A stretch of 64,000 nt of DNA from Geodermatophilaceae bacterium NBWT11. GTDB lineage: Bacteria; Actinomycetota; Actinomycetes; Mycobacteriales; Geodermatophilaceae. Position 1 is the first letter of the stretch. Every line of letters begins with the position of its first letter. This document shows positions 1,248 to 63,992 of this stretch, piece after piece. Under the pieces are notes generated by a model. That model worked only from the letters and a program-made list of their open reading frames with translations, had not been told where the DNA came from and ran no database searches. The position numbers and the translations under genes are program-made. Location: contig CP043652.1 in the NCBI GenBank assembly GCA_014218215.1, positions 1,488,001-1,552,000 on the forward strand. Direction: 5' to 3'.

Positions 1248-1253
1248 TAGGCT
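1248..1253 (+). promoter_or_regulatory. -10 element of a leaderless ohrR-like gene
   Basis: TAGGCT ends 6 bases before the ATG at 1260 and no ribosome binding site is present, so transcription should begin at or next to the start codon. Confidence 0.65.
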
Positions 1254-1259
1254 GACCCG

Positions 1260-1721
1260 ATGACGGACACCCCGTCGCCGAGCGTGGCTCTCGACGACCA
1301 GCTCTGCTTCGCCCTGTACGCCGCCTCGCGGGCGGTGACCGCGCGCTACCGCCCGATGCTGGACCGGATGGGCCTCACCTACCCCCAGTACCTGGTGATG
1401 ATGCTGCTCTGGGAGACCGACGGGCAGACCGTGGGCCAGCTCGGCGCCCGGCTCTCCCTGGACTCCGGCACGCTGTCGCCCCTGCTCAAGCGGCTGACCG
1501 CCGCCGGGCTGGTCAGCCGGCACCGCCGGGTGGACGACGAGCGGTCGGTCTCGATCCTGCTCACCGACGCCGGTCGCGCCCTGCAGACCCAGGCGATGGA
1601 CGTGTCGAGCGAGATGATCGGGGCACTGGGCCTGGAGATGGCCGAGTTCGACCACCTCAAGGACGAGCTGCGGGCCCTCACCGAACGCGTCGCGGAGGAC
1701 GGGAACACTCTCCGCGGCTGA
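1260..1721 (+). CDS. ohrR: MarR/OhrR-family organic-hydroperoxide-sensing repressor
   Basis: 153-residue winged-helix MarR protein. The N-terminal segment LDDQLCFALYAASR carries Cys16 at the position of the redox-active Cys of OhrR repressors, and the wing sequence RRVDDERSVSILLTDAGR is typical. In OhrR proteins, oxidation of this Cys by organic peroxides releases the operator. The next gene is an OsmC-type peroxidase 62 bases downstream in the same direction, which fits the usual ohrR-ohr/osmC pairing. A near-palindrome sits immediately after the stop codon, between the two genes. The ATG start is supported by TAGGCT six bases upstream. Confidence 0.88.
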   Translation: MTDTPSPSVALDDQLCFALYAASRAVTARYRPMLDRMGLTYPQYLVMMLLWETDGQTVGQLGARLSLDSGTLSPLLKRLTAAGLVSRHRRVDDERSVSILLTDAGRALQTQAMDVSSEMIGALGLEMAEFDHLKDELRALTERVAEDGNTLRG

Positions 1722-1739
1722 TCGGTTGTGCACGACCGA
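1722..1739. promoter_or_regulatory. Candidate OhrR operator before osmC
   Basis: TCGGTTGTGCACGACCGA differs from a perfect palindrome at one symmetric pair only. It lies between the repressor stop codon and the peroxidase start, where an operator for the OhrR-like protein is expected. The assignment is by position. Confidence 0.5.
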
Positions 1740-1783
1740 ACGGGGTCACCAGGCGGTGGCCCCTCGTCGACAGAGGAGTCAGC

Positions 1784-2227
1784 ATGCCCACTCGCACCGC
1801 ACGCACCGCCTGGAACGGCACCCTGGAAGAGGGCTCGGGCCAGGTCGAGCTCAGCAGCTCGAAGGTCGGCACCTACGAGGTCTCCTTCCCCAAGCGGGCG
1901 GCGGACGAGGCCGGCGGCACCACCTCCCCCGAGGAGCTCATCGCCGCGGCCCACTCGTCCTGCTACGCCATGCAGCTCTCGGCCCTGATCGCCCAGGCCG
2001 GCGGCACCCCGCAGTCCCTGGACGTCTCCGCTGACGTCTCCCTGGGCCCGGACTCCGCCAACGGCGGCTTCAAGCTCACCGGCATCAAGCTGACCGTCCG
2101 CGGCGAGGTCGACGGCCTCGACGCCGCCGGCTTCGACAAGGCCGCCCAGGACGCCAAGGCCGGCTGCCCGGTCAGCAAGGCCCTCACCGGCGTCGAGATC
2201 ACCCTGGACGCCGCGCTCGAGTCCTGA
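1784..2227 (+). CDS. osmC: OsmC-family thiol peroxidase
   Basis: 147-residue OsmC/Ohr-fold protein that reduces organic hydroperoxides. The two catalytic cysteines are visible: Cys60 in AAAHSSCYAMQLS and Cys128 in AKAGCPVSKAL. The N-terminal WNGTLEEGSGQVELSS and the PEELIAAAHSSC block are closer to OsmC than to Ohr, so the OsmC subgroup is preferred. The ATG has GAGGAG about 7 bases upstream. The gene follows the OhrR-like repressor and ends at a strong hairpin. Confidence 0.9.
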   Translation: MPTRTARTAWNGTLEEGSGQVELSSSKVGTYEVSFPKRAADEAGGTTSPEELIAAAHSSCYAMQLSALIAQAGGTPQSLDVSADVSLGPDSANGGFKLTGIKLTVRGEVDGLDAAGFDKAAQDAKAGCPVSKALTGVEITLDAALES

Positions 2228-2238
2228 TCGACCACGCC

Positions 2239-2269
2239 ACGGCCCGCCCCCGCACCGGGGGCGGGCCGT
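2239..2269 (+). terminator. Hairpin terminator after osmC
   Basis: A 13-bp perfect stem, ACGGCCCGCCCCC with GGGGGCGGGCCGT, encloses a 5-base loop 12 bases after the osmC stop. No U-tract is present, as is usual at this G+C. Confidence 0.7.
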
Positions 2270-2321
2270 CGTGCTGTCCGGACCCTGGGTGCGTGCACAG
2301 CGGGTGCACGGGGGACGACGG

Positions 2322-2327
2322 CACCGT
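2322..2327 (+). promoter_or_regulatory. -10-like element, leaderless start of the Ser/Thr-rich protein
   Basis: CACCGT ends 7 bases before the ATG at 2335 and no convincing ribosome binding site is present. Confidence 0.45.
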
Positions 2328-2334
2328 GGGGGGC

Positions 2335-2655: not shown

Positions 2656-2659
2656 GCCC

Positions 2660-3340: not shown

Positions 3341-4959
3341 GCCGCACCCACCGTCGAGGACGCCAGCTCCGCGGCGCCCACCGGCAGCCGGGCGGTGAAC
3401 ACCGCTCCCCCGCCGGCCGGGGAGTCCACCCGCACGTCCCCGCCGCGGCGGCCGGCGACCAGCTGCACCAGGGCCAGGCCCTGACCGCGCCCCTCCCCGG
3501 GCTTGGTCGACACCCCGCGGCGGAACACCGAGTGCAGCACGGCGTCGTCCACACCCGGGCCGTCGTCGGCCACCCGGACCACGACCTCGTCGCCGGCCAC
3601 CCGCACGTCGACCTGCACCCGGGCGCCGGGCCGGTCGGCGACGGCGTCCAGCGCGTTGTCCACCAGGTTGCCCAGCACGGTGACCAGGTCGGCGGCCAGG
3701 CCGGGAGCGACCCGGGGCAGCGCGCTGCCGTCGGTCACGACCACGGTCGCGCCGCGTTCCCGGGCCAGGCTGGACTTCGCCGCCACCAGGGCGCCGACCG
3801 CCGGGTCGGCCAGCCGCCGGGTCACCGCGTCGTCCAGCACCGCACCGTCCCGCCCGAGCGCCTCGATGAAGTCGACCACCTCCTCGTGCAGGCCGAGCTG
3901 CACCAGGCCCGAGATGGTGTGCAGCCGGTTGGCGAACTCGTGGGTCTGGGCGCGCAGGGTGTCCCCGACGTCGCGGCTGGCGACCAGCTGCTGCTGCAGC
4001 GCGACCAGCTCGGTGTGGTCGCGCAGGGTCGTGACCGAGCCGAGCACCCGGCCGGCGCGGTGCAGGTCGGTGCGGGTGAGCACGAGCAGCCGACCGCTGC
4101 GGACGACCATCCGGTCGGGGTCGGGGGTGCCGGTGGCCCCGGTCAGCAGGCCGAGCAGCGGCTGCTCGGTGACGTGGTCGGCCAACGGGGCCCCCACGCA
4201 GTCCTCGGGCAGGTCCAGCAGCTCGACCGCGGCCTCGTTGACCAGCGTGACGCGCCCGTCGGCGTCCAGGCCGAGCACGCCCTCGCGGATGCCGTGCAGC
4301 ATCGCCTCGCGGTGCTCGGTGAGCGCGGCGATCTCGGTCGGCTCCAGGCCGAGGGTCTGCCGCTTGACCCGCCGGGCCAGCAGCACCGAGCCGGCCACCC
4401 CGAGGACGCCGGCGACCAGCAGGTAGGTGAGCAGGTCGGGCAGCGCGGTGACCAGCAGCGCGGCGGTGCTGGGGTCGTCCTGGGCGACGACGACGGTGCC
4501 CAGCAGCGTGCCGTCGTCGGCCAGCACCGGGGCGCGGGCGGCCCGGACGTCCCGGTCGCCCAGCGTCGTCCCCCCGCTCCACCCGGCGCCCAGGGACACC
4601 GCGCCGTCGTCGGCGCCGGGGGTGAGCACGGTGCGCAGCAGCCGCGGGTCGTCGGGGGCGGCGAGCACGGTGCCCTCGGCGTCGGTGACGACGATCGAGT
4701 CGACCGCGTTGGTGGTGCGCAGGTCCTCCACCACCGGGGCGAGCTGGGCGCCGTCGGCCACCCGGGCCAGCTCGTAGCGCAGCACCGGCAGGCTCGCGGC
4801 GTACTCGGCGACCGCCCGCACCCGCCGGTCGGCGCCGGTCTCGCTGGTGAACCGGCTCTGCGCGACCGACACCGCGGCGACGCCGAGCACCACGACGGCG
4901 ACCAACCCGAGCTGGAAGGCCAGCAGCCGGCCGGCCAGCGAGGTGGGACGTCGGTTCAC
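3337..4959 (-). CDS. CitA/DcuS-type sensor histidine kinase
   Basis: 540 residues. A first membrane segment at about 12-33 (FQLGLVAVVVLGVAAVSVA) is followed by an extracytoplasmic sensor of roughly 130 residues with the PASTA-like fold of CitA sensors. A second membrane segment lies near 170-190. A PAS domain begins after the family motif LEPTEIAALTEHREAM. The dimerisation segment is RAQTHEFANRLHTISGLVQLG with the phospho-His in HEFANRLH, and the ATPase domain has NLVDNALDAV and DDGPGV. The GTG start at 4959 puts the first membrane helix at the N-terminus and has CATCAT six bases upstream, so the transcript is probably leaderless. Ligand specificity cannot be read from sequence. Confidence 0.9.
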   Translation of the reverse strand: MNRRPTSLAGRLLAFQLGLVAVVVLGVAAVSVAQSRFTSETGADRRVRAVAEYAASLPVLRYELARVADGAQLAPVVEDLRTTNAVDSIVVTDAEGTVLAAPDDPRLLRTVLTPGADDGAVSLGAGWSGGTTLGDRDVRAARAPVLADDGTLLGTVVVAQDDPSTAALLVTALPDLLTYLLVAGVLGVAGSVLLARRVKRQTLGLEPTEIAALTEHREAMLHGIREGVLGLDADGRVTLVNEAAVELLDLPEDCVGAPLADHVTEQPLLGLLTGATGTPDPDRMVVRSGRLLVLTRTDLHRAGRVLGSVTTLRDHTELVALQQQLVASRDVGDTLRAQTHEFANRLHTISGLVQLGLHEEVVDFIEALGRDGAVLDDAVTRRLADPAVGALVAAKSSLARERGATVVVTDGSALPRVAPGLAADLVTVLGNLVDNALDAVADRPGARVQVDVRVAGDEVVVRVADDGPGVDDAVLHSVFRRGVSTKPGEGRGQGLALVQLVAGRRGGDVRVDSPAGGGAVFTARLPVGAAELASSTVGAA

Positions 4960-4965
4960 GGGCCC

Positions 4966-4971
4966 ATGATG
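4966..4971 (-). promoter_or_regulatory. -10-like element of the sensor kinase gene
   Basis: On the minus strand CATCAT ends 6 bases before the GTG at 4959. It is divergent from the promoter at 4992-4997. Confidence 0.5.
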
Positions 4972-4991: not shown

Positions 4992-4997
4992 CACCAT
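4992..4997 (+). promoter_or_regulatory. -10-like element of the TctC-like gene
   Basis: CACCAT ends 6 bases before the ATG at 5004 and no ribosome binding site is present. Confidence 0.5.
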
Positions 4998-5003: not shown

Positions 5004-5948
5004 ATGCGCAGCCGGGCCGGACTCGTCGCGGTCGCACTGCTGCTCGCCGGCTGCGGCGGGGGGCCCGCACCGGTCGAGGACCTGCGGGTCATGGTGCCCA
5101 ACACGGTGGGCGGTGGCTACGACGTCACCGGCCGGACGGCGGCCCGGGTGCTCGAGGAGACCGGCCTGGCGCCCGGGGTGGAGGTCTTCCAGCTGCCCGG
5201 TGCCGGCGGCGCGGTGGGGTTGGCCCGGCTGGCCGGGGAGGCCGGCAACGGGGACCTGCTGATGAGCATGGGGCTGGGCCTGCTGGCGGCGTCCCGGGCC
5301 AGCGACGTCACCACCACGGTCGCCGACGTCACCCCGGTGGCCCGGCTCATCGAGGAGCCCGCCGCCGTCCTGGTCACCGCCGACGCCCCGTACGACACGG
5401 TCGCCGAGCTGACCGACGCCTGGGCGGCCGACCCGGCCGCGTTCCCGGTCGGCGGCGGGTCGGCGCCGGCCGGGCCGGACAGCCTGCTCGCCCTCCAGCT
5501 GGCCGCCGCGGTCGGGATCCCGCAGGACGGGGTGGACTACGTGGCCTTCGACGGCGGCGGCGACCTGGTGCCCGCGCTGCTGTCCGGTCAGGTCGAGGTC
5601 GCGTTGTCCAGCACGGCGGAGTTCGCCGACCTGCTGGCCTCGGGCGAGGTGCGGGCACTGGCGACGACGGGGGCGCAGCGGGTGCCCACCGTCGACGCAC
5701 CCACCCTCACCGAGCTCGGCGTCGACGTCGTCTTCACCAACTGGCGCGGGCTGGTCGCCCCGCCGGGGCTGAGCGCCGAGCAGGTGGACCGGCTGACCGG
5801 GCTGGTCGTGGCGATGCACGACTCCCCGCAGTGGCGGGCCGCGCTGGCGACGAACTCCTGGACCGACGCCCTGCTCACCGGCCCCGCGGCCGCGGAGTTC
5901 TTCACCGAGCAGCAGCAGGTGGTCGACGACGCGCTGGACCGCGGCTAG
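5004..5948 (+). CDS. Orphan TctC-family tricarboxylate-binding lipoprotein
   Basis: 314 residues. A lipoprotein signal with lipobox LLAGC lies at about 14-18, followed by a periplasmic-binding fold of the TctC/Bug family: VMVPNTVGGGYDVTGR near the N-terminus, LPGAGGAVGLARLA, and the C-terminal NWRGLVAPPGLSAEQV block. TctC proteins normally deliver carboxylates to TctA/TctB membrane subunits, but neither is present here. The gene is divergent, 44 bases away, from a CitA/CitB-type two-component system. In Bordetella, a TctC-type protein acts as a signal partner of such a kinase, so a sensing role is a reasonable inference. The ATG at 5004 is chosen over 4986 because it gives a proper signal peptide. 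Confidence 0.85.
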   Translation: MRSRAGLVAVALLLAGCGGGPAPVEDLRVMVPNTVGGGYDVTGRTAARVLEETGLAPGVEVFQLPGAGGAVGLARLAGEAGNGDLLMSMGLGLLAASRASDVTTTVADVTPVARLIEEPAAVLVTADAPYDTVAELTDAWAADPAAFPVGGGSAPAGPDSLLALQLAAAVGIPQDGVDYVAFDGGGDLVPALLSGQVEVALSSTAEFADLLASGEVRALATTGAQRVPTVDAPTLTELGVDVVFTNWRGLVAPPGLSAEQVDRLTGLVVAMHDSPQWRAALATNSWTDALLTGPAAAEFFTEQQQVVDDALDRG

Positions 5949-7152: not shown

Positions 7153-8685
7153 TCAGGAGCTGTGGGGCAGGCCGAGGAGCGGCCAGACGACGAGGGCGAA
7201 GACGAGGACCAGGACGGCGGTGAGCGGGCCGAGCACCGCGGACAGCCGGCGCAGCTCGCGCGGTCCGTACGTGGGGGCGCCCTCGATGCGGGCGAAGACC
7301 GCGACCGGCTTGGCCGAGGCGGGCAGCGTGTGGCAGAAGCCGGCGGCGGCGGTCGAGGCCAGCGCGGCGGCGACCGGGTCGACGCCGGCCACCGGGGCCA
7401 GCGCCACGACCAGCGGGACCAATACGGCCGAACGGGCGGTGCGGGAGGCGATGACGAGGTGCGCGGCCGTGCTCACCACGACGACGACGGCGAGGAAGGC
7501 GACCGGGGAGCCGGTGACCGGCCCGCCGAGGGCCAGCCCGGCCAGCGCGGCCGCCGCGCCGGAGTCGACCAGCGCCGAGCCGAGCGCCAGGGTGGCGGCG
7601 AGGAACAGCAGCAGGGACCAGGGCACCCGCGCGAGCGCCTCGGACAGCGTCGTCCCGGTGACCCCGGGCGCGGTCACCACGAGGGCGGCACCGAGCGCGA
7701 CCAGCGCGGGGCTGACCCCGTGCAGGGCCTCGGTGCACCAGAGGGTGACGACGACGCCCAGCAGCACCAGCACCCGCCGCTCCTCGGGCCGGAGCCCGCG
7801 CGGGGTGCCGACCTCGGCGGCCAGCCGCTCGGCCGACACGTGCAGCGGGGTGCGCCGCTCGGCGCGGTCCACGGTCTGCCGCAGCACCAGCTCGGCCGCG
7901 GTGTGCGAGCTGACCAGCGCCAGCGGCAGGCCGAGCAGCGCCCAGCGCAGGAACGACACGCCCTCCCCGGTGGCCTCGGTGAGCACCGCGCTGGTGACCA
8001 GGTGTGCACCGGCGCCGAGCAGCGACCCGACCGCCGACAGCAGCACGACGGTCGGCACGAGCAGGGCCAGTCCGCGGACCAGCTGCGGCCGGTCGGCCAG
8101 CACCCGGGCCAGCGCCAGGAACACCGGCAGCGCCAGGGCGGCGCGGCCCGACGTCGAGGGCACCATGAAGGTGGTGGCCACCAGGGCGAGGGTGGTGAGC
8201 TGGAACAGCGTGCGCGGCGTGCGGGCCCGGGCCAGCAGCCAGCCGGCGGCCCGGTCGGCCAGCCCGGAGCCGGCGACGGCCACCCCGACCACGAAGGCCG
8301 CGACCAGCAGCCAGACCACGTCGGAACCCAGCGTGCCGAAGAGCTCCTCGACCGGGAGCACCCCGGTCACCGCGAGCACCAGGGCCGCGGCCAGCGCGAC
8401 GGCGGTGTCGTCGAGGTCGGTGGCCACCCAGGCCCAGGTGGCGACGGCGAAGACCGCCAGCGTCAGTCCCCCGGCCGGGTCCAGCCCCCCGACCAGGACG
8501 GCGCAGAGCACGGCGAGCAGCACCCCGGCCAGCAGGGCCAGTCCGGCCAGCCGGCCACGGCTCGCGCCGGCCACCGCGTCCCGCACCCGCTCACGCGCGG
8601 CCACCCGGAGCCGGTCGCGCCGGCCGGGCGCGGTGGGCAGCGGCCGGGTGACGTCGTCGCGCTGGAGCGTCGGGGAGGTGGGCAC
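7153..8685 (-). CDS. DASS/SLC13-type anion transporter
   Basis: 510-residue integral membrane protein with about 11-12 hydrophobic segments beginning near residue 45. The duplicated core has TTFMVPSTSGRAALALPVF in the first half and STAHLV-like and FCHTLPASAKPVAVF segments in the second, typical of divalent-anion:Na+ symporters that carry dicarboxylates, citrate or sulfate. The hydrophilic N-terminus of 40 residues is rich in Arg. The first gene of an operon with glycerate kinase. The GTG start has no ribosome binding site but has CACGGT 7 bases upstream. Substrate is inferred from the neighbours only. Confidence 0.82.
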   Translation of the reverse strand: MPTSPTLQRDDVTRPLPTAPGRRDRLRVAARERVRDAVAGASRGRLAGLALLAGVLLAVLCAVLVGGLDPAGGLTLAVFAVATWAWVATDLDDTAVALAAALVLAVTGVLPVEELFGTLGSDVVWLLVAAFVVGVAVAGSGLADRAAGWLLARARTPRTLFQLTTLALVATTFMVPSTSGRAALALPVFLALARVLADRPQLVRGLALLVPTVVLLSAVGSLLGAGAHLVTSAVLTEATGEGVSFLRWALLGLPLALVSSHTAAELVLRQTVDRAERRTPLHVSAERLAAEVGTPRGLRPEERRVLVLLGVVVTLWCTEALHGVSPALVALGAALVVTAPGVTGTTLSEALARVPWSLLLFLAATLALGSALVDSGAAAALAGLALGGPVTGSPVAFLAVVVVVSTAAHLVIASRTARSAVLVPLVVALAPVAGVDPVAAALASTAAAGFCHTLPASAKPVAVFARIEGAPTYGPRELRRLSAVLGPLTAVLVLVFALVVWPLLGLPHSS

Positions 8686-8692: not shown

Positions 8693-8698
8693 ACCGTG
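8693..8698 (-). promoter_or_regulatory. -10-like element of the DASS-glycerate kinase operon
   Basis: On the minus strand CACGGT ends 7 bases before the GTG at 8685. Confidence 0.4.
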
Positions 8699-20076: not shown

Positions 20077-20082
20077 GACACT
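20077..20082 (+). promoter_or_regulatory. -10-like element of the membrane-anchored protein gene
   Basis: GACACT ends 6 bases before the GTG at 20089, with no ribosome binding site. Confidence 0.4.
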
Positions 20083-29060: not shown

Positions 29061-30356
29061 GTGAGCAGCACAGCACCAGCCCCCGCCGGAATCCCCCGAC
29101 GGGGGCTGGTGCTCGTCGCGGTGGCCATCGTGCTGACCGGGTTCAACCTGCGGACGGCGGTCAACGGCGTCGGCCCGGTGCTGCAGGAGATCGAGGCCGG
29201 CCTGGGCATCTCCTCCGGTGCCGCCGGGCTGATCACCACCATGCCGCTGCTGTGCTTCGCGGTGATCGGGTTCGCCGGACCGCCGCTGGCCGCCCGGTTC
29301 CGCGACGGGCACGTGCTGGCCGCCGCCCTGCTGGTGATGGCCCTGGGCGTGCTCGGCCGGGCCGCGGCGCCGTCGTTCTGGCTGTTCCTGCTGGGCACCG
29401 TGGCCACCATGGTCGGCGGGGCGCTGGGCAACGTGCTGCTGCCGGGCATCGTCAAGCACTGGTTCCCGCACCGCACCGGGCTGCTGGTCGGCGCCTACAG
29501 CACCACGATGGCGATCGGCGGCGCCGTGGCCAGCGTCTCGACAGCGCCGATCGCCGAGTCCGTGGGTGCCGACGGGTGGCGTTGGGCGCTCGGGGTCTGG
29601 GCGGTGTTCGCCGTCCTCGCCGTCGTCCCGTGGCTGCTGGTGCCGCGGCGGACCGCGGCGACCGGCACGCCCCGCGGCGCCGTCCGCCTGCGGGTGCTGG
29701 TGCGCTCGTCGCTGGCCTGGCAGCTCGCGGTGTTCTTCGGGCTGCAGGCCATGCAGGCCTACGTGATCGTGGGCTGGACGGCGCAGTACCTGCGCGACGA
29801 GGGCATGTCGGCCGCAGCGGCAGGGGTGCTGGTGGGCGTGAACGCGCTGATCGTCATCCCGCTGAACGCGCTGGTGCCCTCGGGGGCGGTCCGGCAGTCC
29901 TGGCAGCGCCCCATGCTGGTCGGCTTCATGGCCTGCTACCTGGTCGGCTGGACCGGGCTGCTGCTCTCCCCGCTCACCCTGACCTGGCTGTGGATGTCGA
30001 TGCTCGGCATCGGGATGGGCACGTTCGCGATGGTGCTGTCGCTGCTCGGGTTGCGGGCCCGGACGCCGGAGACGGTGAACGCGCTGTCCACCGTGGTGCA
30101 GGGCTGGGGCTACGCGATCGCCGCCGTCGGCCCGCTGCTGGTGGGCCTGCTGCGCGGGCTCACCGGCGGGTACACCGGCATGTTCGTGCTGGTCTACCTC
30201 GGGGTCGCCGGGCTGTTCGTCACCGGTTGGCTGGTCTGCGCCGACCGGCAGGTGGACGACGAGGTGCCCGAGCTGCGCGCGGACCCCGACACCCGCGAGG
30301 ACGTCGAGGTCGAGGCGGCCGGCGTGGAGTCCCCGGTCGTGGTGGAGCCCCGCTGA
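29061..30356 (+). CDS. CynX/NimT-type MFS transporter
   Basis: 431 residues with 12 membrane helices. The start [32 protein letters not shown] is the signature of the cyanate permease/CP family, whose members move cyanate, nitroimidazoles or other small molecules. The C-terminal 40 residues are acidic and cytoplasmic. The GTG at 29061 is chosen because the sequence before it belongs to the previous intergenic region. It ends with a tandem TGATGA double stop. Convergent with dcd, whose reading frame continues antisense through this gene. Confidence 0.86.
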
Positions 30357-30944
30357 TGAGTCGCGGACGCTGGTGTCCGTGATGGAGAAGTTGCGGTACG
30401 AGCGGGACGGCGTCGGCCCCCGCTGGTCCTGGTAGCGCGAGCCGTAGACCGAGCTGCCGTAGGGGTGCTCGGACGGGCTAGACAGCGTGAACAGGCACAG
30501 CTGGCCGATCTTCATCCCCGGCCACAGCGTGATCGGCAGGTTCGCCACGTTCGACAGCTCCAGGGTGATCGAGCCGGAGAACCCCGGGTCGACGAAGCCA
30601 GCCGTGGAGTGGGTGAGCAGGCCGAGCCGGCCCAGGGAGCTCTTCCCCTCCAGCCGCGCCGCCAGGTCGTCGGGCAGCGTCACGACCTCCAGCGTCGAGC
30701 CGAGCACGAACTCCCCCGGGTGCAGCACGAAGGGCTCACCGGCCGCCGGCTCGACCAGCGTGGTCAGGTCGTCCTGCTGCTGGGCGGGGTCGATGTGGGT
30801 GTACCGGGCGTTGTTGAACACCCGGAAGAACCGGTCCAGCCGGACGTCGATGCTGGAGGGCTGCACCAGTCCCGCGTCGTGGGGCTCGATGCCCAGGCGG
30901 CCGTCGGCCAGGGCCGCGGTGATGTCGCGGTCGGACAGCAGCAT
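30357..30944 (-). CDS. dcd: dCTP deaminase with no stop codon at the expected end
   Basis: The first 190 residues are a canonical actinobacterial dCTP deaminase, which makes dUMP or dUTP from dCTP for thymidylate synthesis. Visible blocks: [27 protein letters not shown]-type [49 protein letters not shown] with the catalytic Glu region, and [13 protein letters not shown] near the usual C-terminus. No stop follows. The frame reads through TCATCA, which is the complement of the MFS double stop, and continues antisense to 28875, for 690 residues in all. I mark the end at the last codon before that point. The ATG has TACGGT seven bases upstream. Confidence 0.85.
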
Positions 30945-30951: not shown

Positions 30952-30957
30952 ACCGTA
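30952..30957 (-). promoter_or_regulatory. -10 element of leaderless dcd
   Basis: On the minus strand TACGGT ends 7 bases before the ATG at 30944. Confidence 0.55.
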
Positions 30958-31020: not shown

Positions 31021-31026
31021 CAGGGT
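31021..31026 (+). promoter_or_regulatory. -10-like element of the phosphotransferase-like gene
   Basis: CAGGGT ends 6 bases before the GTG at 31033. Confidence 0.4.
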
Positions 31027-36621: not shown

Positions 36622-36627
36622 AGTGTG
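36622..36627 (-). promoter_or_regulatory. -10-like element of the methyltransferase gene
   Basis: On the minus strand CACACT ends 6 bases before the GTG at 36615. Confidence 0.4.
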
Positions 36628-36759: not shown

Positions 36760-36786
36760 TGTCGTGTCCGGGCTCCCCGGGCGTAC

Positions 36787-36800
36787 GTTGAGAGCTCAAC
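36787..36800. promoter_or_regulatory. Operator-like repeat over the flavin reductase promoter
   Basis: GTTGAG-AG-CTCAAC overlaps the end of the -10-like TACGTT at 36784-36789 and the expected start site, a repressor position. Confidence 0.5.
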
Positions 36801-36822
36801 CAGCACCTCGAGGAGCCCCGCC

Positions 36823-37392
36823 GTGTCCCGTCCCGTCCTGCAGGTCGTCGCCGCCAGCACCCGCCCCGGCCGCAAGGGCATCGCGGTCGCCCGCTGGGTC
36901 GCCGCCCGTGCCGAGGCCCACGGCGACTTCGACGTCGAGCTGGTCGACCTGGCCGAGGCCGGGCTCCCGGTGCTCGACGAGCCCAACCACCCCCGCCTGC
37001 GCCAGTACACGAAGGACCACACGAAGGCCTGGTCGGCGACGATCAGCCGCGCCGACGCCTTCGTGTTCGTCTTCCCCGAGTACAACCACTCGATCCCCGG
37101 CGCGCTGAAGAACGCCCTGGACTTCCTCTTCCACGAGTGGGCCGACAAGGCCGCGGGGCTCGTCTCCTACGGCGGGGTCTCGGCCGGCACCCGGGCGGCC
37201 GCGGCCCTGAAGCCGGTGCTGGGCGCCCTGCGGATGGTCCCGGTCGTCGAGGCCGCGACCATCCCGTTCTTCACCCAGTTCATCGACGAGGACGGGGAGT
37301 TCGTCGGCAACGCCGAGCTCGAGGCCGGCGCGACCGCGATGCTCGACGAGATCGCCCGGCTCACGCGCGGCCTGCAAAGCGTGCGTCGCTGA
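36823..37392 (+). CDS. NADPH-dependent FMN reductase
   Basis: 189-residue flavodoxin-like protein. The phosphate-binding loop ASTRPGRKGIAVARWV is at about 9-24 and the family motif PEYNHSIPGALKNALDFLF near 86-104. It transfers electrons from NAD(P)H to FMN or to quinones, nitro or azo compounds. The GTG has GAGGAG about 7 bases upstream. The promoter carries an inverted repeat, so it may respond to a small-molecule stress. Followed 14 bases later by the AAC(2')-like gene. Confidence 0.9.
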   Translation: MSRPVLQVVAASTRPGRKGIAVARWVAARAEAHGDFDVELVDLAEAGLPVLDEPNHPRLRQYTKDHTKAWSATISRADAFVFVFPEYNHSIPGALKNALDFLFHEWADKAAGLVSYGGVSAGTRAAAALKPVLGALRMVPVVEAATIPFFTQFIDEDGEFVGNAELEAGATAMLDEIARLTRGLQSVRR

Positions 37393-37394: not shown

Positions 37395-37400
37395 GAGGCT
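37395..37400 (+). promoter_or_regulatory. -10-like element of the AAC(2')-like gene
   Basis: GAGGCT ends 6 bases before the GTG at 37407; it lies just after the stop of the previous gene. Confidence 0.35.
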
Positions 37401-38065: not shown

Positions 38066-38083
38066 GGTGACGGACCGGTCACC
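38066..38083. promoter_or_regulatory. GGTGAC-N6-GTCACC repeat overlapping the UspA-like promoter
   Basis: Perfect 6-bp arms overlap the -10-like CACCAT at 38080-38085. The same GTGACGGACCGG-GTCAC core recurs at 48541-48557. Confidence 0.5.
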
Positions 38084-38085
38084 AT
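38080..38085 (+). promoter_or_regulatory. -10-like element of the UspA-like gene
   Basis: CACCAT ends 6 bases before the ATG at 38092. Confidence 0.45.
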
Positions 38086-40389: not shown

Positions 40390-40395
40390 ACGCTA
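40390..40395 (-). promoter_or_regulatory. -10 element of the methyltransferase-PKS operon
   Basis: On the minus strand TAGCGT ends 7 bases before the GTG at 40382. Confidence 0.5.
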
Positions 40396-41846: not shown

Positions 41847-42491
41847 ATGACCCGTCCCGGTGGCGCGTTCTGGTACGCGCGCCACCGGGACGGCGACTCC
41901 CCCGGCCACACGCTCACCGGCATGGCCACCGACGAGTTCCCGGACGGGACCGTCGTGGACCTGCCCGGCCCGCCGCAGCGACCGGCCGGTTGGGCGCTCC
42001 AGGCCCGGGTGCCCGTCCCCGGGCGGGTGCCGTCGTCGGTCGTCGTCGCCCGCGCCGTCGCACCCGAGGCGCCGCACCTGTGGTGCGTGCTGGTGCCCGC
42101 GTCCCCCGACCGTCCGGGCCGCCTGGACCTCATCGGCTTCTCCACCGCACACCACCCCGACGGCGCCGTGATGGGCGCCGACACCTTCACCGCCCTGGAC
42201 ATCGCCTGGTCCAACCAGGTCTGCGCGCTGCGCTGGGACCCGCCCACCGGGGTCGTCGAGCAGGTCTACGTCGCCCCCGAGCACCGCCGCCTCGGCCTGG
42301 CCACCAAGCAGACGATGGTGGCCGCCGGCATCCGCACCGCCATGGGCTGGGCCTCGCTGCGCAGCGACGGCCGGCTCACCGACCTCGGTGACACCTGGCT
42401 GTCCGAGGCCCCGGACTGGTGGCGGCACCGGGTGCCCACCCGGACGGCCCACCTCCCACCGATGACCCCCGGGGACGGCGGCCCCACCTAG
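41847..42491 (+). CDS. Protein of unknown function with a GNAT-like segment
   Basis: 214 residues. The centre-right segment VVEQVYVAPEHRRLGLATKQTMVAAGI resembles the acetyl-CoA-binding turn of GNAT proteins (R-x-x-G-L-A), with aromatic residues on either side. The first 100 residues are not recognised. The ATG at 41847 lies 10 bases after the previous stop and has no good ribosome binding site. It could be a divergent acetyltransferase, but confidence is low. Confidence 0.6.
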   Translation: MTRPGGAFWYARHRDGDSPGHTLTGMATDEFPDGTVVDLPGPPQRPAGWALQARVPVPGRVPSSVVVARAVAPEAPHLWCVLVPASPDRPGRLDLIGFSTAHHPDGAVMGADTFTALDIAWSNQVCALRWDPPTGVVEQVYVAPEHRRLGLATKQTMVAAGIRTAMGWASLRSDGRLTDLGDTWLSEAPDWWRHRVPTRTAHLPPMTPGDGGPT

Positions 42492-42494
42492 GCT
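42489..42494 (+). promoter_or_regulatory. -10 element before the ribokinase gene
   Basis: TAGGCT ends 7 bases before a GTG at 42502 that opens a four-codon reading frame, and 18 bases before the ribokinase start. Confidence 0.55.
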
Positions 42495-42516: not shown

Positions 42517-43427
42517 GCGTGACCGTCGTCGGCAGCCTGAACGAGGACGTCGTGGTGACCGTCCGCCGGCTCCCCGGGCGCGGGGAGACCGTGATCGGCA
42601 GTGCGGTCGAGGTGCTGCCCGGCGGCAAGGGCGCGAACCAGGCCGCGGCGGCCGGGCGGCTGGGCCGCGGGGTGCACATGGTCGGGCGGGTCGGCTCGGA
42701 CGACGCCGCCGATCGTCAGCTGGCAGCGCTGGCCGAGGCCGGGGTGAACGTGGGCCGGGTGCTGCGCACCCCGGGCGTGCCGACCGGCAGCGCCACGATC
42801 CCGGTCGAGGCCGAGGGCGGGGAGAACCTGATCGTCGTCGTCCCCGGCGCGAACGCCGAGCTGAGCGCGGCCGACGTGACCGTCGAGAGCGTGCACCGCG
42901 CCGACGTGCTGCTGCTGCAGCTGGAGACCCCGCTGGACACCGTGCTCGCCGCCGCCCGGGCCACCACCGGCACCGTGGTGCTCAACCCGGCGCCGGCACA
43001 GCCACTGCCGGCCGAGCTGCTCGCCGCCGTCGACGTGCTGGTGCCCAACGAGCACGAGCTGGCGGAGCTCGCCGGCTCCGACGCCGCCGACCTCGCCGGG
43101 CTGGTCGACCTGGCCCGCGGACTGGCGTCACCGGCGGTCGTGGTCACCCTGGGCGGCAACGGCGCCCTCGTCGTCCCGGCCGACGGTCCGGCGCTGCACC
43201 AGCCCCCGCTGGCGGTGCAGCCGGTCGACACCACCGGCGCGGGCGACTGCTTCTGCGGCGCGCTCTGCCAGGCACTCTCGGCCGGCGCCGACCTGCCCAC
43301 CGCCGTCGCCTACGCAGCCACCGCGGCCGCGCTGTCGACCACCGGCGCCGGGGCCCGCGGCGGGCTGCCCGACGACGACGCGGTCCGCGCCGCACTGCCC
43401 CGGCTCCCGGCGGCCCGCCCGGTCTGA
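42513..43427 (+). CDS. rbsK: Ribokinase (PfkB family)
   Basis: 304 residues. The N-terminal VVGSLNEDVVVTVRRLPGRGET and the di-Gly motif LPGGKGANQAAAAGRLG are ribokinase hallmarks. The C-terminal anion hole is VDTTGAGDCFCGALCQAL with the catalytic Asp near 247. It phosphorylates D-ribose or a related sugar at O5. It stands alone, 19 kb from the ribose-type ABC operon. The GTG at 42513 is supported by the MSVTVVGSLN start. Confidence 0.92.
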   Translation: MSVTVVGSLNEDVVVTVRRLPGRGETVIGSAVEVLPGGKGANQAAAAGRLGRGVHMVGRVGSDDAADRQLAALAEAGVNVGRVLRTPGVPTGSATIPVEAEGGENLIVVVPGANAELSAADVTVESVHRADVLLLQLETPLDTVLAAARATTGTVVLNPAPAQPLPAELLAAVDVLVPNEHELAELAGSDAADLAGLVDLARGLASPAVVVTLGGNGALVVPADGPALHQPPLAVQPVDTTGAGDCFCGALCQALSAGADLPTAVAYAATAAALSTTGAGARGGLPDDDAVRAALPRLPAARPV

Positions 43428-43451
43428 CGGTTGGCCCGCACACCCATCGGG

Positions 43452-43457
43452 CACGGT
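43452..43457 (+). promoter_or_regulatory. -10-like element of the small acidic gene
   Basis: CACGGT ends 6 bases before the ATG at 43464. Confidence 0.4.
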
Positions 43458-43463
43458 CGGGGC

Positions 43464-43637
43464 ATGACCGAGACCACGCCCACCCACTCCGAGGACCCCG
43501 CCGAGGGCTCCGACACCACCACCCCGACCGAGAGCGCCGGCCGCACCCCGCACACCGAGGACGCCGCCGAGGGCGACCGCGACACCGCCGACGCCGAGTC
43601 CGGCGTCGACCCGGCGAACCGGATCAGCGAGGCCTGA
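43464..43637 (+). CDS. Small acidic disordered protein (57 residues)
   Basis: Rich in Thr, Glu, Asp and Ser with no hydrophobic core (ETTPTHSEDPAEGSDTTTP at the start). Similar tiny acidic frames occur at 49685 and 48364. A -10-like hexamer at the standard 6-base distance supports it. It overlaps the convergent mycothiol-type gene by 14 bases. Function unknown. Confidence 0.5.
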   Translation: MTETTPTHSEDPAEGSDTTTPTESAGRTPHTEDAAEGDRDTADAESGVDPANRISEA

Positions 43638-44496: not shown

Positions 44497-44502
44497 ACGG
44501 TA
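44497..44502 (-). promoter_or_regulatory. -10 element of the TIGR03084-like gene
   Basis: On the minus strand TACCGT ends 6 bases before the ATG at 44490. Confidence 0.55.
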
Positions 44503-44544: not shown

Positions 44545-44550
44545 CACCAT
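44545..44550 (+). promoter_or_regulatory. -10-like element of the LLM oxidoreductase gene
   Basis: CACCAT ends 6 bases before the ATG at 44557. Confidence 0.45.
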
Positions 44551-48351: not shown

Positions 48352-48357
48352 CATCCT
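48352..48357 (+). promoter_or_regulatory. -10-like element of a 46-codon gene
   Basis: CATCCT ends 6 bases before the ATG at 48364. Confidence 0.35.
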
Positions 48358-48363: not shown

Positions 48364-48504
48364 ATGACGCCAGACGAACAGCAGCACCGGGCCGACGACG
48401 ACGTCCCCACCGCGCGGGGCACCCAGAGCGAGGAGCCGCCCCCGTCACCGGCTGCCCCGATCGCCCGGATGCTGGCCAACCCCCGCCGCACCCGCCGGGC
48501 CTGA
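48364..48504 (+). CDS. Small protein of 46 residues
   Basis: MTPDEQQHRADDDVPTARG, then Pro-rich and a basic end (RMLANPRRTRRA). Acidic at the N-terminus, basic at the C-terminus, predicted disordered. No family recognised. The -10-like hexamer at the standard distance supports it weakly. It could be spurious. Confidence 0.4.
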   Translation: MTPDEQQHRADDDVPTARGTQSEEPPPSPAAPIARMLANPRRTRRA

Positions 48505-48560: not shown

Positions 48561-48666
48561 GGCCCCACCGACCACCTCGAACCCGGCCACCACATGCGTG
48601 TTCGTGACCCTGGGTCGTGATGCCGACACACCGGCGTGCCGTGAACTGCTCCGTCACGCAGCCGTG

Positions 48667-48672
48667 CACCAT
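48667..48672 (+). promoter_or_regulatory. -10-like element of the TetR gene
   Basis: CACCAT ends 7 bases before the GTG at 48680. Confidence 0.4.
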
Positions 48673-48679
48673 CCCTGAC

Positions 48680-49351
48680 GTGACCGCCGCCCTCGCCCTC
48701 GACCACGCGTCATCCACGGCCGACGACCTCCACCGGGGCGTCGACTCACAGGGCAGCCCGCTGCCCGTGCGGCGCAGCCGCGAGGAGCGTCAGGCGATCG
48801 TCCTGGACACCGCCGACCGGCTCTTCGCCGGCCGCAGCTCGCGCAGCGTCGGCATGGACGAGCTGGTCCGGGAGACCGGGCTGGGCAAGATGACGGTCTA
48901 CCGGCTCTTCAAGAGCAAGGACGACCTGGTGGGCGCCTACCTGGCGCGCAAGGCCGCCACCGTCCTGGGCTACCTCGACGCCGAGACCCACCGGTTCGCC
49001 GACGACCCGCGGGGCGCGCTGCTGGCCGTCGTCGACGTGGTGGAGAAGGACGTCACCCGCACCGGCTTCCGCGGCTGCCCGTTCACCAACGTCAGCAGCG
49101 AGTACGACGACCCGCAGCACCCGGCCCGCTCGGCGGCCGCGGACTACAAGTACGAGCTGCACCTGCGGCTGGTGAACCTGTCCGAGGAGCTGGTCCCCGG
49201 CCACGGCGACGACCTCGCCGCCCAGGTGCACCTGATCATCGACGGCATGTACCTCTCCGGCGGCCTGCTGGGCCCCGACGGGCCGGCCAGCCACGGCCGC
49301 CAGCTGGCCGAGCGGCTCGTCGACGCCGCCGTCGCGGCCGCCGCGCGCTGA
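48680..49351 (+). CDS. TetR-family regulator
   Basis: 223 residues. The helix-turn-helix VLDTADRLFAGRSSRSVGMDELVRETGLGKMTVYRLFKSKDDLVGAYL, in part here as RETGLGKMTVYRLFKSKDDL, is at about 40-88. The C-terminal ligand domain has GFRGCPFTNVSSEYDDPQHP near 137-156 with a Cys that could be redox-sensitive. The GTG at 48680 is chosen over 48617 because of the CACCAT seven bases upstream. Target and ligand unknown. Confidence 0.85.
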   Translation: MTAALALDHASSTADDLHRGVDSQGSPLPVRRSREERQAIVLDTADRLFAGRSSRSVGMDELVRETGLGKMTVYRLFKSKDDLVGAYLARKAATVLGYLDAETHRFADDPRGALLAVVDVVEKDVTRTGFRGCPFTNVSSEYDDPQHPARSAAADYKYELHLRLVNLSEELVPGHGDDLAAQVHLIIDGMYLSGGLLGPDGPASHGRQLAERLVDAAVAAAAR

Positions 49352-49365: not shown

Positions 49366-49371
49366 TACCGT
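49366..49371 (+). promoter_or_regulatory. -10 element of the LapA-like gene
   Basis: TACCGT ends 6 bases before the GTG at 49378. Confidence 0.55.
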
Positions 49372-55184: not shown

Positions 55185-55190
55185 TAGGTT
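55185..55190 (+). promoter_or_regulatory. -10 element of the phosphatase gene
   Basis: TAGGTT ends 7 bases before the GTG at 55198, with no ribosome binding site. Confidence 0.6.
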
Positions 55191-55197: not shown

Positions 55198-56022
55198 GTG
55201 CCCGACGACGCCCGCTGGCTGCCCCTGCAGGGGACGACGAACACCCGCGACCTGGGCGGCCTGCCGCTGACCGACGGCGGCACCACGGTGCCCGGGCGGG
55301 TGCTGCGCAGCGACGACCTGCAGGAGCTCACCGACCACGACGTCGTGGTGCTCGTCGACGACCTGGGCGTGACCGACGTGGTCGACCTGCGCAGCAGCGC
55401 CGAGGTGCGCCTGGAGGGGCGCGGGCCGCTGCGCGACCAGCCCGAGATCGCCCACCGGCACTTCACCCTGCTGCCCGAGGCAGGCACGTACACCGACGTC
55501 TACGCCGCCGAGGACGACGCCGACGTCGACCTGCCCGAGGGCTGGCTGGAGAGCCTGCTGCCCCGCAGCGTCGCCGCCGAGCACGAGACCGAGACCCCCG
55601 CCGTCCGCTCCTACCTGGGCTACCTGACCGACGGGGCGGACAACGTCGTCGGCGCGCTGCGCGCGATCACCGCGGCGTCCGGCACGGCCCTGGTGCACTG
55701 CGCCGCGGGCAAGGACCGCACCGGCGTCGTGTGCGCGCTGGCCCTGGAGGTCGCCGGGGTCGAGCGGGAGGCCGTCGTGGCCGACTACGCGTTGACCGCC
55801 GAGCGGATCGACGACGTGGTGGGCAAGCTCGCCGCCCGGCCCACCTACGCCCAGGACATGGCGCGCCGCGACGTGGCCAGCCACACCCCGCGGGCGGACT
55901 CGATGCGCCGCCTGCTGGACCTGCTGGACGCCGACCACGGCGGCGCCGCCGGCTGGCTCGCCGAGCGCGGCTTCGGCCCGGAGGAGCAGACCGCCCTCCG
56001 CCTGCGCCTCACCGAGGCCTGA
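55198..56022 (+). CDS. Tyrosine/serine protein phosphatase (PtpB-like family)
   Basis: 274 residues. The active-site loop HCAAGKDRTG is at 167-176 with nucleophile Cys168. The N-terminal GTTNTRDLGGLP and VLRSDDLQELTDHDV are characteristic of the Y_phosphatase3 family that includes Mycobacterium PtpB. Dual protein and phosphoinositide activity is known for that group. The long upstream reading frame belongs to the antisense of the transporter; the leaderless GTG is chosen. A hairpin follows the stop. Confidence 0.9.
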   Translation: MPDDARWLPLQGTTNTRDLGGLPLTDGGTTVPGRVLRSDDLQELTDHDVVVLVDDLGVTDVVDLRSSAEVRLEGRGPLRDQPEIAHRHFTLLPEAGTYTDVYAAEDDADVDLPEGWLESLLPRSVAAEHETETPAVRSYLGYLTDGADNVVGALRAITAASGTALVHCAAGKDRTGVVCALALEVAGVEREAVVADYALTAERIDDVVGKLAARPTYAQDMARRDVASHTPRADSMRRLLDLLDADHGGAAGWLAERGFGPEEQTALRLRLTEA

Positions 56023-62378: not shown

Positions 62379-62418
62379 CACGATCACCGACAGAACTCGA
62401 CGCAGAGGAGCGCACCGC

Positions 62419-62679
62419 ATGCCCAGCCAGACCGTGACCGTCGGATCCGCCGTAGGCCTGCACGCCCGTCCGGCCGCCCTGATCGCCGAGGCCGTCGGCA
62501 AGGCCGGGGTGCCCGTCACCCTGGCCACCGCGGGGGGCAACCCCGTGGACGCCGGCTCGCCCCTGATGATCATGACGCTCGGTGCGAAGAAGGGCGCCGA
62601 GGTCACCGTGACCAGCGACGACGAGGCCGTCCTGGCCGACATCGCCGCGATGGTAGAGCGCGACCTCGACGCCGAGTAG
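62419..62679 (+). CDS. ptsH: PTS phosphocarrier HPr
   Basis: 86 residues. The phosphorylation motif is VGLHARPAAL with His15. MTLGAKKGAEVTV and the C-terminal helix are typical. It relays phosphate from Enzyme I (56511-58232) to FruA. Ser47 stands near the regulatory Ser position but no HPr kinase gene is in the window. GAGGAG lies about 7 bases before the ATG. Last gene of the fru operon. Confidence 0.94.
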   Translation: MPSQTVTVGSAVGLHARPAALIAEAVGKAGVPVTLATAGGNPVDAGSPLMIMTLGAKKGAEVTVTSDDEAVLADIAAMVERDLDAE

Positions 62680-62690
62680 CAACGCGCAGC

Positions 62691-62727
62691 GAACGCCCCG
62701 TCCCTCTCCTCGAGGGGCGGGGCGTTC
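62691..62727 (+). terminator. Hairpin terminator after ptsH
   Basis: GAACGCCCCGTCCC and GGGGCGGGGCGTTC pair over 14 bases with one wobble, 11 bases after the ptsH stop. Confidence 0.75.
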
Positions 62728-62746
62728 TGCATTCCCGGCCTGGCAG

Positions 62747-62796
62747 AGGAACCTCCACACCCCCTGGGACGCCCGATGGGGGGTGTAGAGGTTCCT
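62747..62796 (-). terminator. Second hairpin, between ptsH and the AGE-family gene
   Basis: 18-base arms with one mismatch (62747-62764 and 62779-62796) end 7 bases from the convergent gene's stop. On the minus strand it terminates that gene. Confidence 0.75.
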
Positions 62797-62803
62797 TCGT
62801 CGG

Positions 62804-63979
62804 TCAGGGGAGCAGCGCGGCCGCGAGGCTGCCGCGGACGGGGCGCTCGCGCAGCAGGAGCATCTGGGCCAGGTGGTAGGCGTCGGGCTGGCCGGTCCAG
62901 GTGCCGGTGCCGACCTCGCCGGTCGGGGTCAGCTCGTGGTGCCAGGAGCCGGTGGAGCGGTCCAGGAAGTGCGCGTCGCCGTGCGCCTCCCAGGCGTGCT
63001 GCAGGCCGGCGGCCCGCGGGTCACCGGTGACCTCGTGCCGGACGGCGGCCGCCGCCACCGCCTCGCACAGCACCCAGTGCATCCGGGCGGCGACGACGGG
63101 CCGGTCGGACCAGTCCAGCGTGTACGGGAACCCGGGGTGCCCGTCGGCGGCCCAGCCCCGCTCGGTGGCCGCGGTGAACAGCGCATCGGCGTCGGCGCGC
63201 AACCAGCCCGGGGCCCGGTCCCCGAGGACGGCGTCCAGGTGCAGGCACAGCCGGGACCACTCGAACTGGTGCCCGACGGTCACGCCGTAGGGCCGGAACG
63301 GGTCGGCGGGGGCGTCGGCGTTGTACTCCGGCAGCGGGGTCCAGAGGTGCGTGAAGTGCTCGGGCAGCCGCCAGTCGGCGTCCCGGGCGAAGCCGTGCAC
63401 GACCCGTTCGGTGGCCCGCAGCGCGTGGGTGCGCAGCCGGGCGGTGGCCTCCGGGTGGGTGCGGGCCAGCGCGTCGGCCGCGGCGAGCACCGCCTCCACG
63501 CCGTGCATGTTCGCGTTGGCCCCGCGGTAGTCCTCGACCTCGGTCCAATCGGCCGAGAACGACTCCCGGGCCAGGCCGGCGGCGTCGTCCCAGAACCGGT
63601 CCTCCCAGACCGCGAGCGCCTCGGTGAGCAGGGCGCCGGCCCCCGGCACCTCCGCGGTCACCGCGCTGGAGGCGGCCAGCAGCACGAACGCGTGCACGTA
63701 GGCGGCCTTGCCCCGCTCGGCGGTCGAGTCCCCCCACCCGCCGTGCTCGGCGTCGCGCAGCGGGCCGGCCGTCAGCGCCCGCACCCCGTGCTCGGCCAGG
63801 TCGAGGGCCTCGGTCGACCCCAGCAGGGCGGCGAGGGAGAACACGTGGGTCATCCGGGCGCTGATCCACGTCTCGGTGGGGCGCTGCTCGACCTCGCCGT
63901 CGGCCCCCAGGTACCCGAACCCGTCGGGCACCCGGGAGCGCGCGGCGAAGGTGAGCAGCGGCCCGAGCTCGGTCTCCAT
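62804..63979 (-). CDS. AGE-family sugar isomerase/epimerase
   Basis: 391 residues, an (alpha/alpha)6 barrel of the N-acylglucosamine 2-epimerase/YihS family. Landmarks: RPTETWISARMTHVFSLAALL near 33-53, GGWGDSTAERGKAAYVHAFVL near 80-100, NANMHGVEAVLAAADAL near 154-170, and the catalytic His positions in GHQFEWSRLCLHL and ARMHWVLCEAVAAA. Relatives interconvert mannose and fructose or glucose. Next to a fructose PTS, a mannose-fructose isomerase role is a sensible inference. The ATG has TAGGGT seven bases upstream. Confidence 0.87.
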   Translation of the reverse strand: METELGPLLTFAARSRVPDGFGYLGADGEVEQRPTETWISARMTHVFSLAALLGSTEALDLAEHGVRALTAGPLRDAEHGGWGDSTAERGKAAYVHAFVLLAASSAVTAEVPGAGALLTEALAVWEDRFWDDAAGLARESFSADWTEVEDYRGANANMHGVEAVLAAADALARTHPEATARLRTHALRATERVVHGFARDADWRLPEHFTHLWTPLPEYNADAPADPFRPYGVTVGHQFEWSRLCLHLDAVLGDRAPGWLRADADALFTAATERGWAADGHPGFPYTLDWSDRPVVAARMHWVLCEAVAAAAVRHEVTGDPRAAGLQHAWEAHGDAHFLDRSTGSWHHELTPTGEVGTGTWTGQPDAYHLAQMLLLRERPVRGSLAAALLP

Positions 63980-63986
63980 CGCACCG

Positions 63987-63992
63987 ACCCTA
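63987..63992 (-). promoter_or_regulatory. -10 element of the AGE-family gene
   Basis: On the minus strand TAGGGT ends 7 bases before the ATG at 63979. Confidence 0.55.

Follow-up and report, generated by a model that had tools for sequence, protein, structure and literature searches.

Many start codons in the genome of Geodermatophilaceae bacterium NBWT11 are preceded at a fixed distance by a hexamer of the form xAxxxT. These hexamers are most probably promoters of the housekeeping sigma factor, with the -10 box abutting the start codon and giving rise to leaderless mRNAs; judged from sequence, the probability of this reading is about 0.92. They were noticed in a stretch of 64,000 nucleotides (nt), here called the window, which covers bases 1488001-1552000 of a 4.59 Mb contig (CP043652.1) and has a GC content of 74%, with 12.9% A and 12.7% T. 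Positions are numbered with the start codon as +1, so that at spacing 6 the A of the box lies at -11 and its T at -7. In a combined set of 1103 starts from this genome (1.264 Mb), a strong box, defined as TANNNT or GN[CG]ANNNT, stands at 284 starts against 46.6 in the control, an excess of 21.5%. Roughly a fifth of the sampled genes look as if they were leaderless, with a -10 box 6-8 nt before the start codon.

An earlier note on this DNA had listed 20 start codons and a mini-open reading frame (mini-ORF) at 42502 as preceded, at 6 or 7 nt, by an xAxxxT hexamer. All 21 hexamers were found in place, with T as the first base in 8, C in 11 and G in 2. Its further statements, that no Shine-Dalgarno (SD) sequence accompanies them and that chance would supply a match at only a few percent of starts, also held: an SD-like match of at least 4 bases lies upstream of only one of the 21 (GAGG before 37407, overlapping the box), and from base composition 3.24% of starts should have a match at one of the two spacings. 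The listed starts may in part have been chosen by the presence of the box. Start sampling relied on a purpose-written gene caller based purely on codon usage, with the start placed at the codon of maximal coding score; upstream bases therefore have no influence on start choice. Among the 58 window starts picked in this way, spacing 6 yields 10 matches and spacing 7 another 3, against 1.9 expected in total. Compared with the listed starts, the caller chose later codons for 1260, 31033 and 38092, an earlier one for 40382 and 2293 instead of 2335, and made no call for 43464, 48364 and 30944.

The discovery set joins the window to 40 stretches from elsewhere in this genome (864 kb and 815 genes in all) and provides 765 usable starts, the rest lying at stretch edges. 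At spacings 6, 7 and 8, xAxxxT occurs at 105, 53 and 21 of these starts against a control of 12.3 (standard deviation 3.5) per spacing. The earlier note had proposed a tabulation against controls as a check; this one, against control spacings, reveals a clear enrichment at spacings 6-8. Divided by first base, the counts at the three spacings are 35, 29 and 12 for T (control 1.4), 42, 13 and 3 for C (4.8), 27, 11 and 6 for G (5.2), and 1, 0 and 0 for A (0.8). Boxes lacking one of the two fixed bases show no excess. Without the final T (TANNN[ACG]), 6 occur at spacing 6 against a control of 3.8, and spacings 5-8 together yield +2; without the A (T[CGT]NNNT), the corresponding values are 17 against 9.3 (standard deviation 3.5) and -4. 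A hold-out set of fresh stretches from the same genome (400 kb, 369 genes, 338 starts) was kept apart and completes the combined set.

Codons that are not chosen as starts lack the peak. At 1022 intergenic ATG or GTG codons, xAxxxT is found at 2.45% and 2.05% for spacings 6 and 7, no higher than at other spacings, and TANNNT alone shows a small bump (0.49, 0.49 and 0.39% at 6, 7 and 8 against mostly 0-0.3%). Among 7325 internal in-frame codons, the frequency is 0.20% at spacing 6, and the 3.21% at spacing 7 is codon-periodic, with similar values at 1, 4 and 10. At 102 annotated Escherichia coli starts, 10 and 2 matches at spacings 6 and 7 form no peak over a control of 7.4 (standard deviation 2.3). 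A three-class expectation-maximisation (EM) run over candidate starts, seeded with the loose motif of A at position 2 and T at position 6, converged on T.42, C.36 and G.22 at position 1, A.85 at position 2 and T.93 at position 6, with weights of.55,.33 and.07 for spacings 6, 7 and 8, and recovered SD starts as a separate class. Upstream of the codon-usage starts in the window and in L004-L023, L104-L123 and L248-L267, 47 in-frame candidates of the leaderless type were found against 5-14 at control spacings, which indicates that the caller often sets the start too far downstream.

The genomic context of the boxes favours promoters. The box excess reaches 39.1% at 352 divergent starts and 12.6% at 327 same-strand starts with a gap of at least 50 nt. 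Of the confident leaderless starts, 107/179 are divergent, vs 74/290 SD starts (p=2e-13). The base before the start codon also varies with spacing: a pyrimidine occupies -1 in 95/157 cases at spacing 6 vs 93/118 at spacings 7-8 (p=0.0016). As a separate observation, both genes look leaderless in 40/176 divergent pairs from the own-genome stretches, with start codons down to 27 bp apart. Promoters so near to each other would overlap, and the RNA polymerases using them should exclude each other.

The boxes are also conserved. Orthologs were compared in stretches of five relatives at an identity of at least 55%, and a hit was defined as xAxxxT at spacing 6-8 with an in-frame start no more than 12 codons from the aligned one. 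Under this definition, the box is kept at 42/56 orthologous starts of the listed set, with 2-6 at control spacings, and is present at 4/93 orthologs of 25 SD-led window genes. Relatives support 14 of the 20 listed starts, namely 1260, 4959, 5004, 8685, 20089, 30944, 31033, 36615, 37407, 40382, 48680, 49378, 55198 and 63979. One relative each stands behind 4959, 5004 and 63979, and the support for 37407, 48680 and 49378 comes largely from shifted start codons. The flanks of the 48680 box are conserved as well, making that box less informative.

The most extensive comparison concerns dcd, the gene for dCTP deaminase, whose box TACGGT (30952..30957, minus strand) lies 7 nt before the ATG at 30944 and is kept in 2/2 near relatives. 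The orthologs examined number 109 and consist of the best 80 named loci among the matches listed, many from Mycobacterium and Nocardia, and 29 other genomes from 18 families, the best-scoring of 58 searched besides the window's own. TANNNT precedes dcd at spacing 5-8 in 107/109 of them (81 at 6, 23 at 7, 2 at 8 and 1 at 5) and in 28/29 of the other genomes; L053 and L145 lack it, and an SD-like match occurs in 1/109. By eye, the remaining upstream sequence differs between genera. The -1 pyrimidine is found in 52/81 dcd orthologs at spacing 6 vs 23/23 at spacing 7. As a comparison, dnaK has TANNNT at 0/30 loci at every spacing tested. A search of the open-access PubMed Central (PMC) literature for leaderless initiation together with dCTP deaminase returned nothing to the point.

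The window's dCTP deaminase shares 98% identity with its counterpart in a metagenome-assembled genome labelled Klenkia sp., and the next matches come from Modestobacter, Geodermatophilus and Blastococcus; the DNA thus probably stems from a Klenkia-like bacterium within Geodermatophilaceae. The window has a sense codon (30357-30359, minus strand) where the 98%-identical L024 has the dcd stop, after codon 195. The frame that holds dcd stays open for 706 codons (from 30992) and runs antisense to the gene at 29109-30356. Either stop loss or a sequence error would account for the missing stop.

Boxes that begin with C or G carry a further mark. Among confident EM cases, a G two positions before the box (G-14) accompanies 80% of C-initial (n=65) and 81% of G-initial boxes (n=21), although EM did not model that base; T at -15 is mildly enriched in the same classes (28% and 43%, respectively, vs ~13% background). 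Codon-usage starts of the discovery set show the same dependence. The C-initial excess is 41.0 with G-14 (GNCANNNT) vs 2.5 without, and the G-initial excess is 22.8 with G-14 (GNGANNNT) vs 5.5 without. T-initial boxes can do without G-14, with an excess of 18.0 with it and 53.9 without. The trade between G-14 and T-12 in this set has p=6e-10.

The G-14 prediction was fixed in writing before the hold-out stretches were tested. There, the C-initial excess was 7.9 with G-14 and -0.2 without, and the G-initial excess, less sharply divided, was 6.9 and 3.5. Boxes with and without G-14 numbered 6/17 for T, 11/4 for C and 9/8 for G (p=0.013). In the stretches of the five relatives, which include orthologs of window genes and are hence not fully independent, these numbers were T 6/22, C 15/6 and G 7/3 (p=2e-4), and G068, a genome of the same family, showed a trend in the same direction (p=0.07). 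Pooled over four family sets, G-14 is present in 85/108 C-initial, 50/80 G-initial and 38/140 T-initial boxes. Above background, the own genome holds ~51 C-initial and ~39 G-initial boxes beside 93 T-initial ones, so that ~90/183 begin with C or G. The C-initial variants that the earlier note had found surprising are real; the surprise is smaller than stated there, as most belong to the published GNNANNNT class with G at -14. By count, the scarcity of A at -8 among T-initial boxes (3/99) looked like strong avoidance, but it was rejected as a feature because A-8 is equally rare in the background (fold 12.9 vs 19.3 for G, 3 cases).

Under the promoter reading, transcription would begin on the A or G of the ATG or GTG and produce an mRNA without a 5' leader. 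The housekeeping sigma factor would recognise the box, which appears to require A-11 and T-7 plus, as a rule, T-12 or G-14. Translation would then begin directly at the 5' end of the message, where the start codon lies. The claim of the earlier note that these starts are leaderless and set by a -10 box draws support from start linkage, the 6-8 nt spacing, conservation at 42/56 starts, the divergent excess, and the G-14 and -1 pyrimidine rules.

Several findings weigh against this account. The boxes before 43464 and 44490 are kept in 0/4 relatives each; for 44490 the EM probability is 1.00 all the same, and G063 carries an SD-like GAGGAGG before its ortholog. Six window boxes (5004, 8685, 31033, 36615, 37407 and 48680) have neither T-12 nor G-14, and they make up 6/13 of the window's C- or G-initial boxes. 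All six are kept in at least one relative, and the other 15/21 window boxes conform to the rule of T-12 or G-14. No G-14 trade was seen in three more distant genomes, G043, G016 and G034 (p=1, 1 and 0.56), which offered few C- or G-initial boxes (12, 10 and 7). With and without G-14, the boxes are T 7/9, C 1/3 and G 4/4 in G043, where C-initial boxes show no excess at all, T 5/7, C 4/1 and G 0/5 in G016, and T 2/3, C 4/0 and G 1/2 in G034. For the -1 pyrimidine, the own genome taken by itself gives a weak trend (p=0.11), and the relatives together with G068 give p=0.001. The EM run assigned 36% of starts to the leaderless class, yet shuffled upstream sequences also gave 15-18%, and the figure was accordingly judged inflated and set aside. 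Finally, the box excess is 13.8% at 424 same-strand starts with a gap below 50 nt; a strict first-gene model would predict less, unless internal promoters occur often.

This last value and the fixed distance to the start codon would also suit a non-SD translation signal without any promoter. Such a signal is very improbable, as it does not explain why divergent starts have about three times the excess, why a -14 base familiar from promoters matters or why the boxes fit the -10 consensus; together with the -1 pyrimidine, the divergent excess and the -14 dependence favour a promoter. Still more remote is chance combined with by-eye choice of starts. Start codons could indeed be picked by their boxes, and of the 20 listed, two are not kept and three have no usable ortholog, but starts chosen blindly show the peak in both the discovery and the hold-out set, and it is absent from decoy codons and E. 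coli. These starts and controls led to the rejection of this explanation for the whole set.

Two other alternatives accept the box as a promoter. In one, the transcription start site (TSS) lies a few bases off the codon and leaders of 1-5 nt are made, an idea to which the 6-8 range of spacings and the wobble in start choice lend something. It is improbable, since the box-to-TSS distance of 5-8 nt mapped in Mycobacterium tuberculosis equals the box-to-codon distance here, and the -1 pyrimidine at spacings 7-8 matches the rule reported for that species, provided that transcription starts at the codon (Mitra et al., 2014; PMC4227772). In the other, C- and G-initial boxes belong to an alternative sigma factor rather than to the G-14 class of the same factor. 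A-8 is commoner in C- or G-initial boxes (37/134) than in T-initial ones (3/99) in the own genome, and in C-initial boxes its enrichment is the highest, 7.1-fold vs 2.5-3.4 for G and C; that the trade was not seen in the three distant genomes points the same way. This assignment is nevertheless unlikely, though less so than the short leaders: Dinan et al. (2014; PMC4128351) describe the T-12/G-14 trade for mycobacteria and cite it for E. coli, A-8 in T-initial boxes is no rarer at starts than in the background, and neither class has a distinct -35 element. For the latter, the hexamers TTGACA, TTGCGA, GGAACC and GTCACG were sought at 16-19 nt in the T-, C- and G-initial classes, with no clear excess over shifted controls.

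With the boxes read as housekeeping promoters, a tentative and rather doubtful extension is that, for particular genes, long-term selection and not drift maintains leaderless initiation. The dcd promoter type is kept in nearly all orthologs examined, amid changing upstream sequence, so that a direct 5'-end start might be needed for dcd regulation. In very GC-rich lineages, the promoter set might in part have moved from T-12 to G-14, an AT base being replaced by a GC base without promoter loss. In this respect, dcd provides a clean test case for gene-by-gene selection on leaderless initiation.

The individual sites differ in how well relatives bear them out. Among T-initial -10 boxes, TAGGCT (1248..1253, plus strand) lies 6 nt before the ATG at 1260 of a MarR-family regulator and is kept in 2/2 relatives. 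TAGCGT (40390..40395, minus), 7 nt before the GTG at 40382 of a methyltransferase, recurs as TAGCGT in 5/5, with shifted starts in 2; orthologs outside the family give a mixed picture and were excluded from the counts. TACCGT (49366..49371, plus), 6 nt before the GTG at 49378 of a LapA-domain protein, is kept in 3/4, all with shifted starts, and the start region of the fourth contains undetermined bases. TAGGTT (55185..55190, plus), 7 nt before the GTG at 55198 of a tyrosine phosphatase, is kept in 4/5, and TAGGGT (63987..63992, minus), 7 nt before the ATG at 63979 of a GlcNAc 2-epimerase family protein, in 1/1.

The C- and G-initial -10 boxes include those of a divergent pair with start codons 45 bp apart: CATCAT with G-14 (4966..4971, minus), 6 nt before the GTG at 4959 of a sensor histidine kinase (kept 1/1), and CACCAT (4992..4997, plus), 6 nt before the ATG at 5004 of a TctC-type receptor (kept 1/1, with G-14 in the relative). 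CACGGT (8693..8698, minus), 7 nt before the GTG at 8685 of a CitMHS-type transporter, is kept in 1/2, with the start 6 nt further on. GACACT with G-14 (20077..20082, plus) stands 6 nt before the GTG at 20089, a gene without Pfam match, and an identical GGGACACT is found in 4/4 at spacing 6 or 7. Likewise without Pfam match is the gene starting at GTG 31033, 6 nt after CAGGGT (31021..31026, plus), where xAxxxT recurs in 3/3 with C or G as the first base. CACACT (36622..36627, minus), 6 nt before the GTG at 36615 of a methyltransferase, remains C-initial in 4/4 while its middle bases vary. GAGGCT (37395..37400, plus), 6 nt before the GTG at 37407 of a GNAT acetyltransferase, and CACCAT (48667..48672, plus), 7 nt before the GTG at 48680 of a TetR regulator, are matched by xAxxxT in 5/5 each, with shifted starts in 3 in both cases. 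A weak case is CACCAT with G-14 (44545..44550, plus), 6 nt before the ATG at 44557 of a luciferase-like monooxygenase and kept in 1/4.

The remaining hexamers lack this support. TACCGT (44497..44502, minus), 6 nt before the ATG at 44490 of an MDMPI_N protein, is kept in 0/4, as is CACGGT (43452..43457, plus), 6 nt before the ATG at 43464 of a 57-codon frame that is itself conserved. For CACCGT (2322..2327, plus), 7 nt before the ATG at 2335, no ortholog reaches 55% identity. CACCAT (38080..38085, plus), 6 nt before the ATG at 38092 of a Usp-domain protein, has a sole match of 53% that falls short of the start, and CATCCT (48352..48357, plus), 6 nt before the ATG at 48364 of a 46-codon frame, has matches of 40-54% identity only.

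Some neighbouring sequences stood out by eye. At 43410-43464, a block GGTTGGCCCGCAC...CGGGCA upstream of the 57-codon frame recurs with variation in relatives, in which the box is not kept. The region between the divergent starts 44490 and 44557 varies between species, and the sequence before the 44557 ortholog looks coding in three relatives; a leaderless start may thus give way to a led one, or the reverse, within short times. An unusually conserved block, CGTGCCGTGAACTGCTCCGTCAC (within 48630-48680), lies ahead of the TetR gene and is perhaps an operator. An inverted repeat, TTGAG...CTCAA (36785-36823), upstream of the gene at 36823 is also operator-like and occurs in varied form in four relatives.

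The mini-ORF deserves separate mention. The box TAGGCT (42489..42494, plus) is present 7 nt before GTG 42502, as the earlier note had it, and the 4-codon frame that follows ends at a TGA overlapping the GTG at 42513 of a PfkB kinase gene. The box is common to relatives; by eye, G063, G059 and G061 have the start of the PfkB gene itself 7 nt after the box, and in the window and G064 that start is 11 nt further on. Both a short leader and coupled translation are possible at 42502. The mini-ORF does not represent a recurring feature: out-of-frame upstream ORFs of the leaderless type number 16 over the 1103 starts vs 20-30 at control spacings. Although their stops tend weakly to fall on the start codon that follows (7/16 vs 29/144 in controls), leaderless mini-ORFs were rejected as a general device for want of enrichment.

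Taken together, the -10-led leaderless starts are a new instance of a known phenomenon (Zheng et al., 2011; Cortes et al., 2013; Dinan et al., 2014), in which two points are worth keeping: how deeply the dcd box is conserved, and how large the C- and G-initial class is in a very GC-rich genome. For Geodermatophilaceae, a search of open-access PMC titles and abstracts on mRNA starts or leaderless transcripts yielded nothing to the point. At 74% GC, about a fifth of the genes would have both a promoter and a true start codon readable from sequence, a help to start-codon annotation. Zheng et al. (2011; PMC3160421) reported TANNNT ~12 bp upstream of genes in 86/89 Actinobacteria, with an average leaderless share of 19.2% (2.3-29.8). 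The motif, its position and the inference are the same here, and the ~21.5% obtained by excess agrees with the statement of the earlier note that leaderless mRNAs are common in actinobacteria. Its surprise at the number of starts set by a -10 box is smaller than it had suggested, as ~20% is the average published there. The difference lies in the first base, since that study gives TAnnnT for high-GC groups and nearly half of the boxes above background here begin with C or G.

In M. tuberculosis, mapped leaderless transcripts carry TANNNT without a clear -35 element (Cortes et al., 2013; PMC3898074). Mapped promoters of the same species have the initial T of the box at a distance of 11-14 nt upstream of the TSS, which leaves a gap of 5-8 nt between box and TSS, prefer a pyrimidine before the TSS when the box is further away, and show a weak -35 element in one architecture (Mitra et al., 2014; PMC4227772). 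The present boxes share the TANNNT motif, the 5-8 nt spacing and the -1 pyrimidine at longer spacings with these M. tuberculosis promoters, for which the TSS was mapped and not, as here, inferred. An extended -10 element, TGNNANNNT, is given by Hubin et al. (2017; PMC5511352) and by Mitra et al. (2014; PMC4227772); G-14 ahead of the ANNNT core is common to that element and to the present boxes, in which T-15 is only mildly enriched. A further parallel is provided by the (-14)GNNANNNT(-7) promoters of Mycobacterium marinum and Mycobacterium bovis, where G-14 can compensate for a lacking T-12 (Dinan et al., 2014; PMC4128351). That work describes TSSs in general together with a -35 signal, in contrast to the leaderless-type starts without a detected -35 element described here. 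The same G-14 rule nonetheless fits most C- and G-initial boxes, which marks them as real members of a class already described and extends the mycobacterial G-14/T-12 rule to Geodermatophilaceae.

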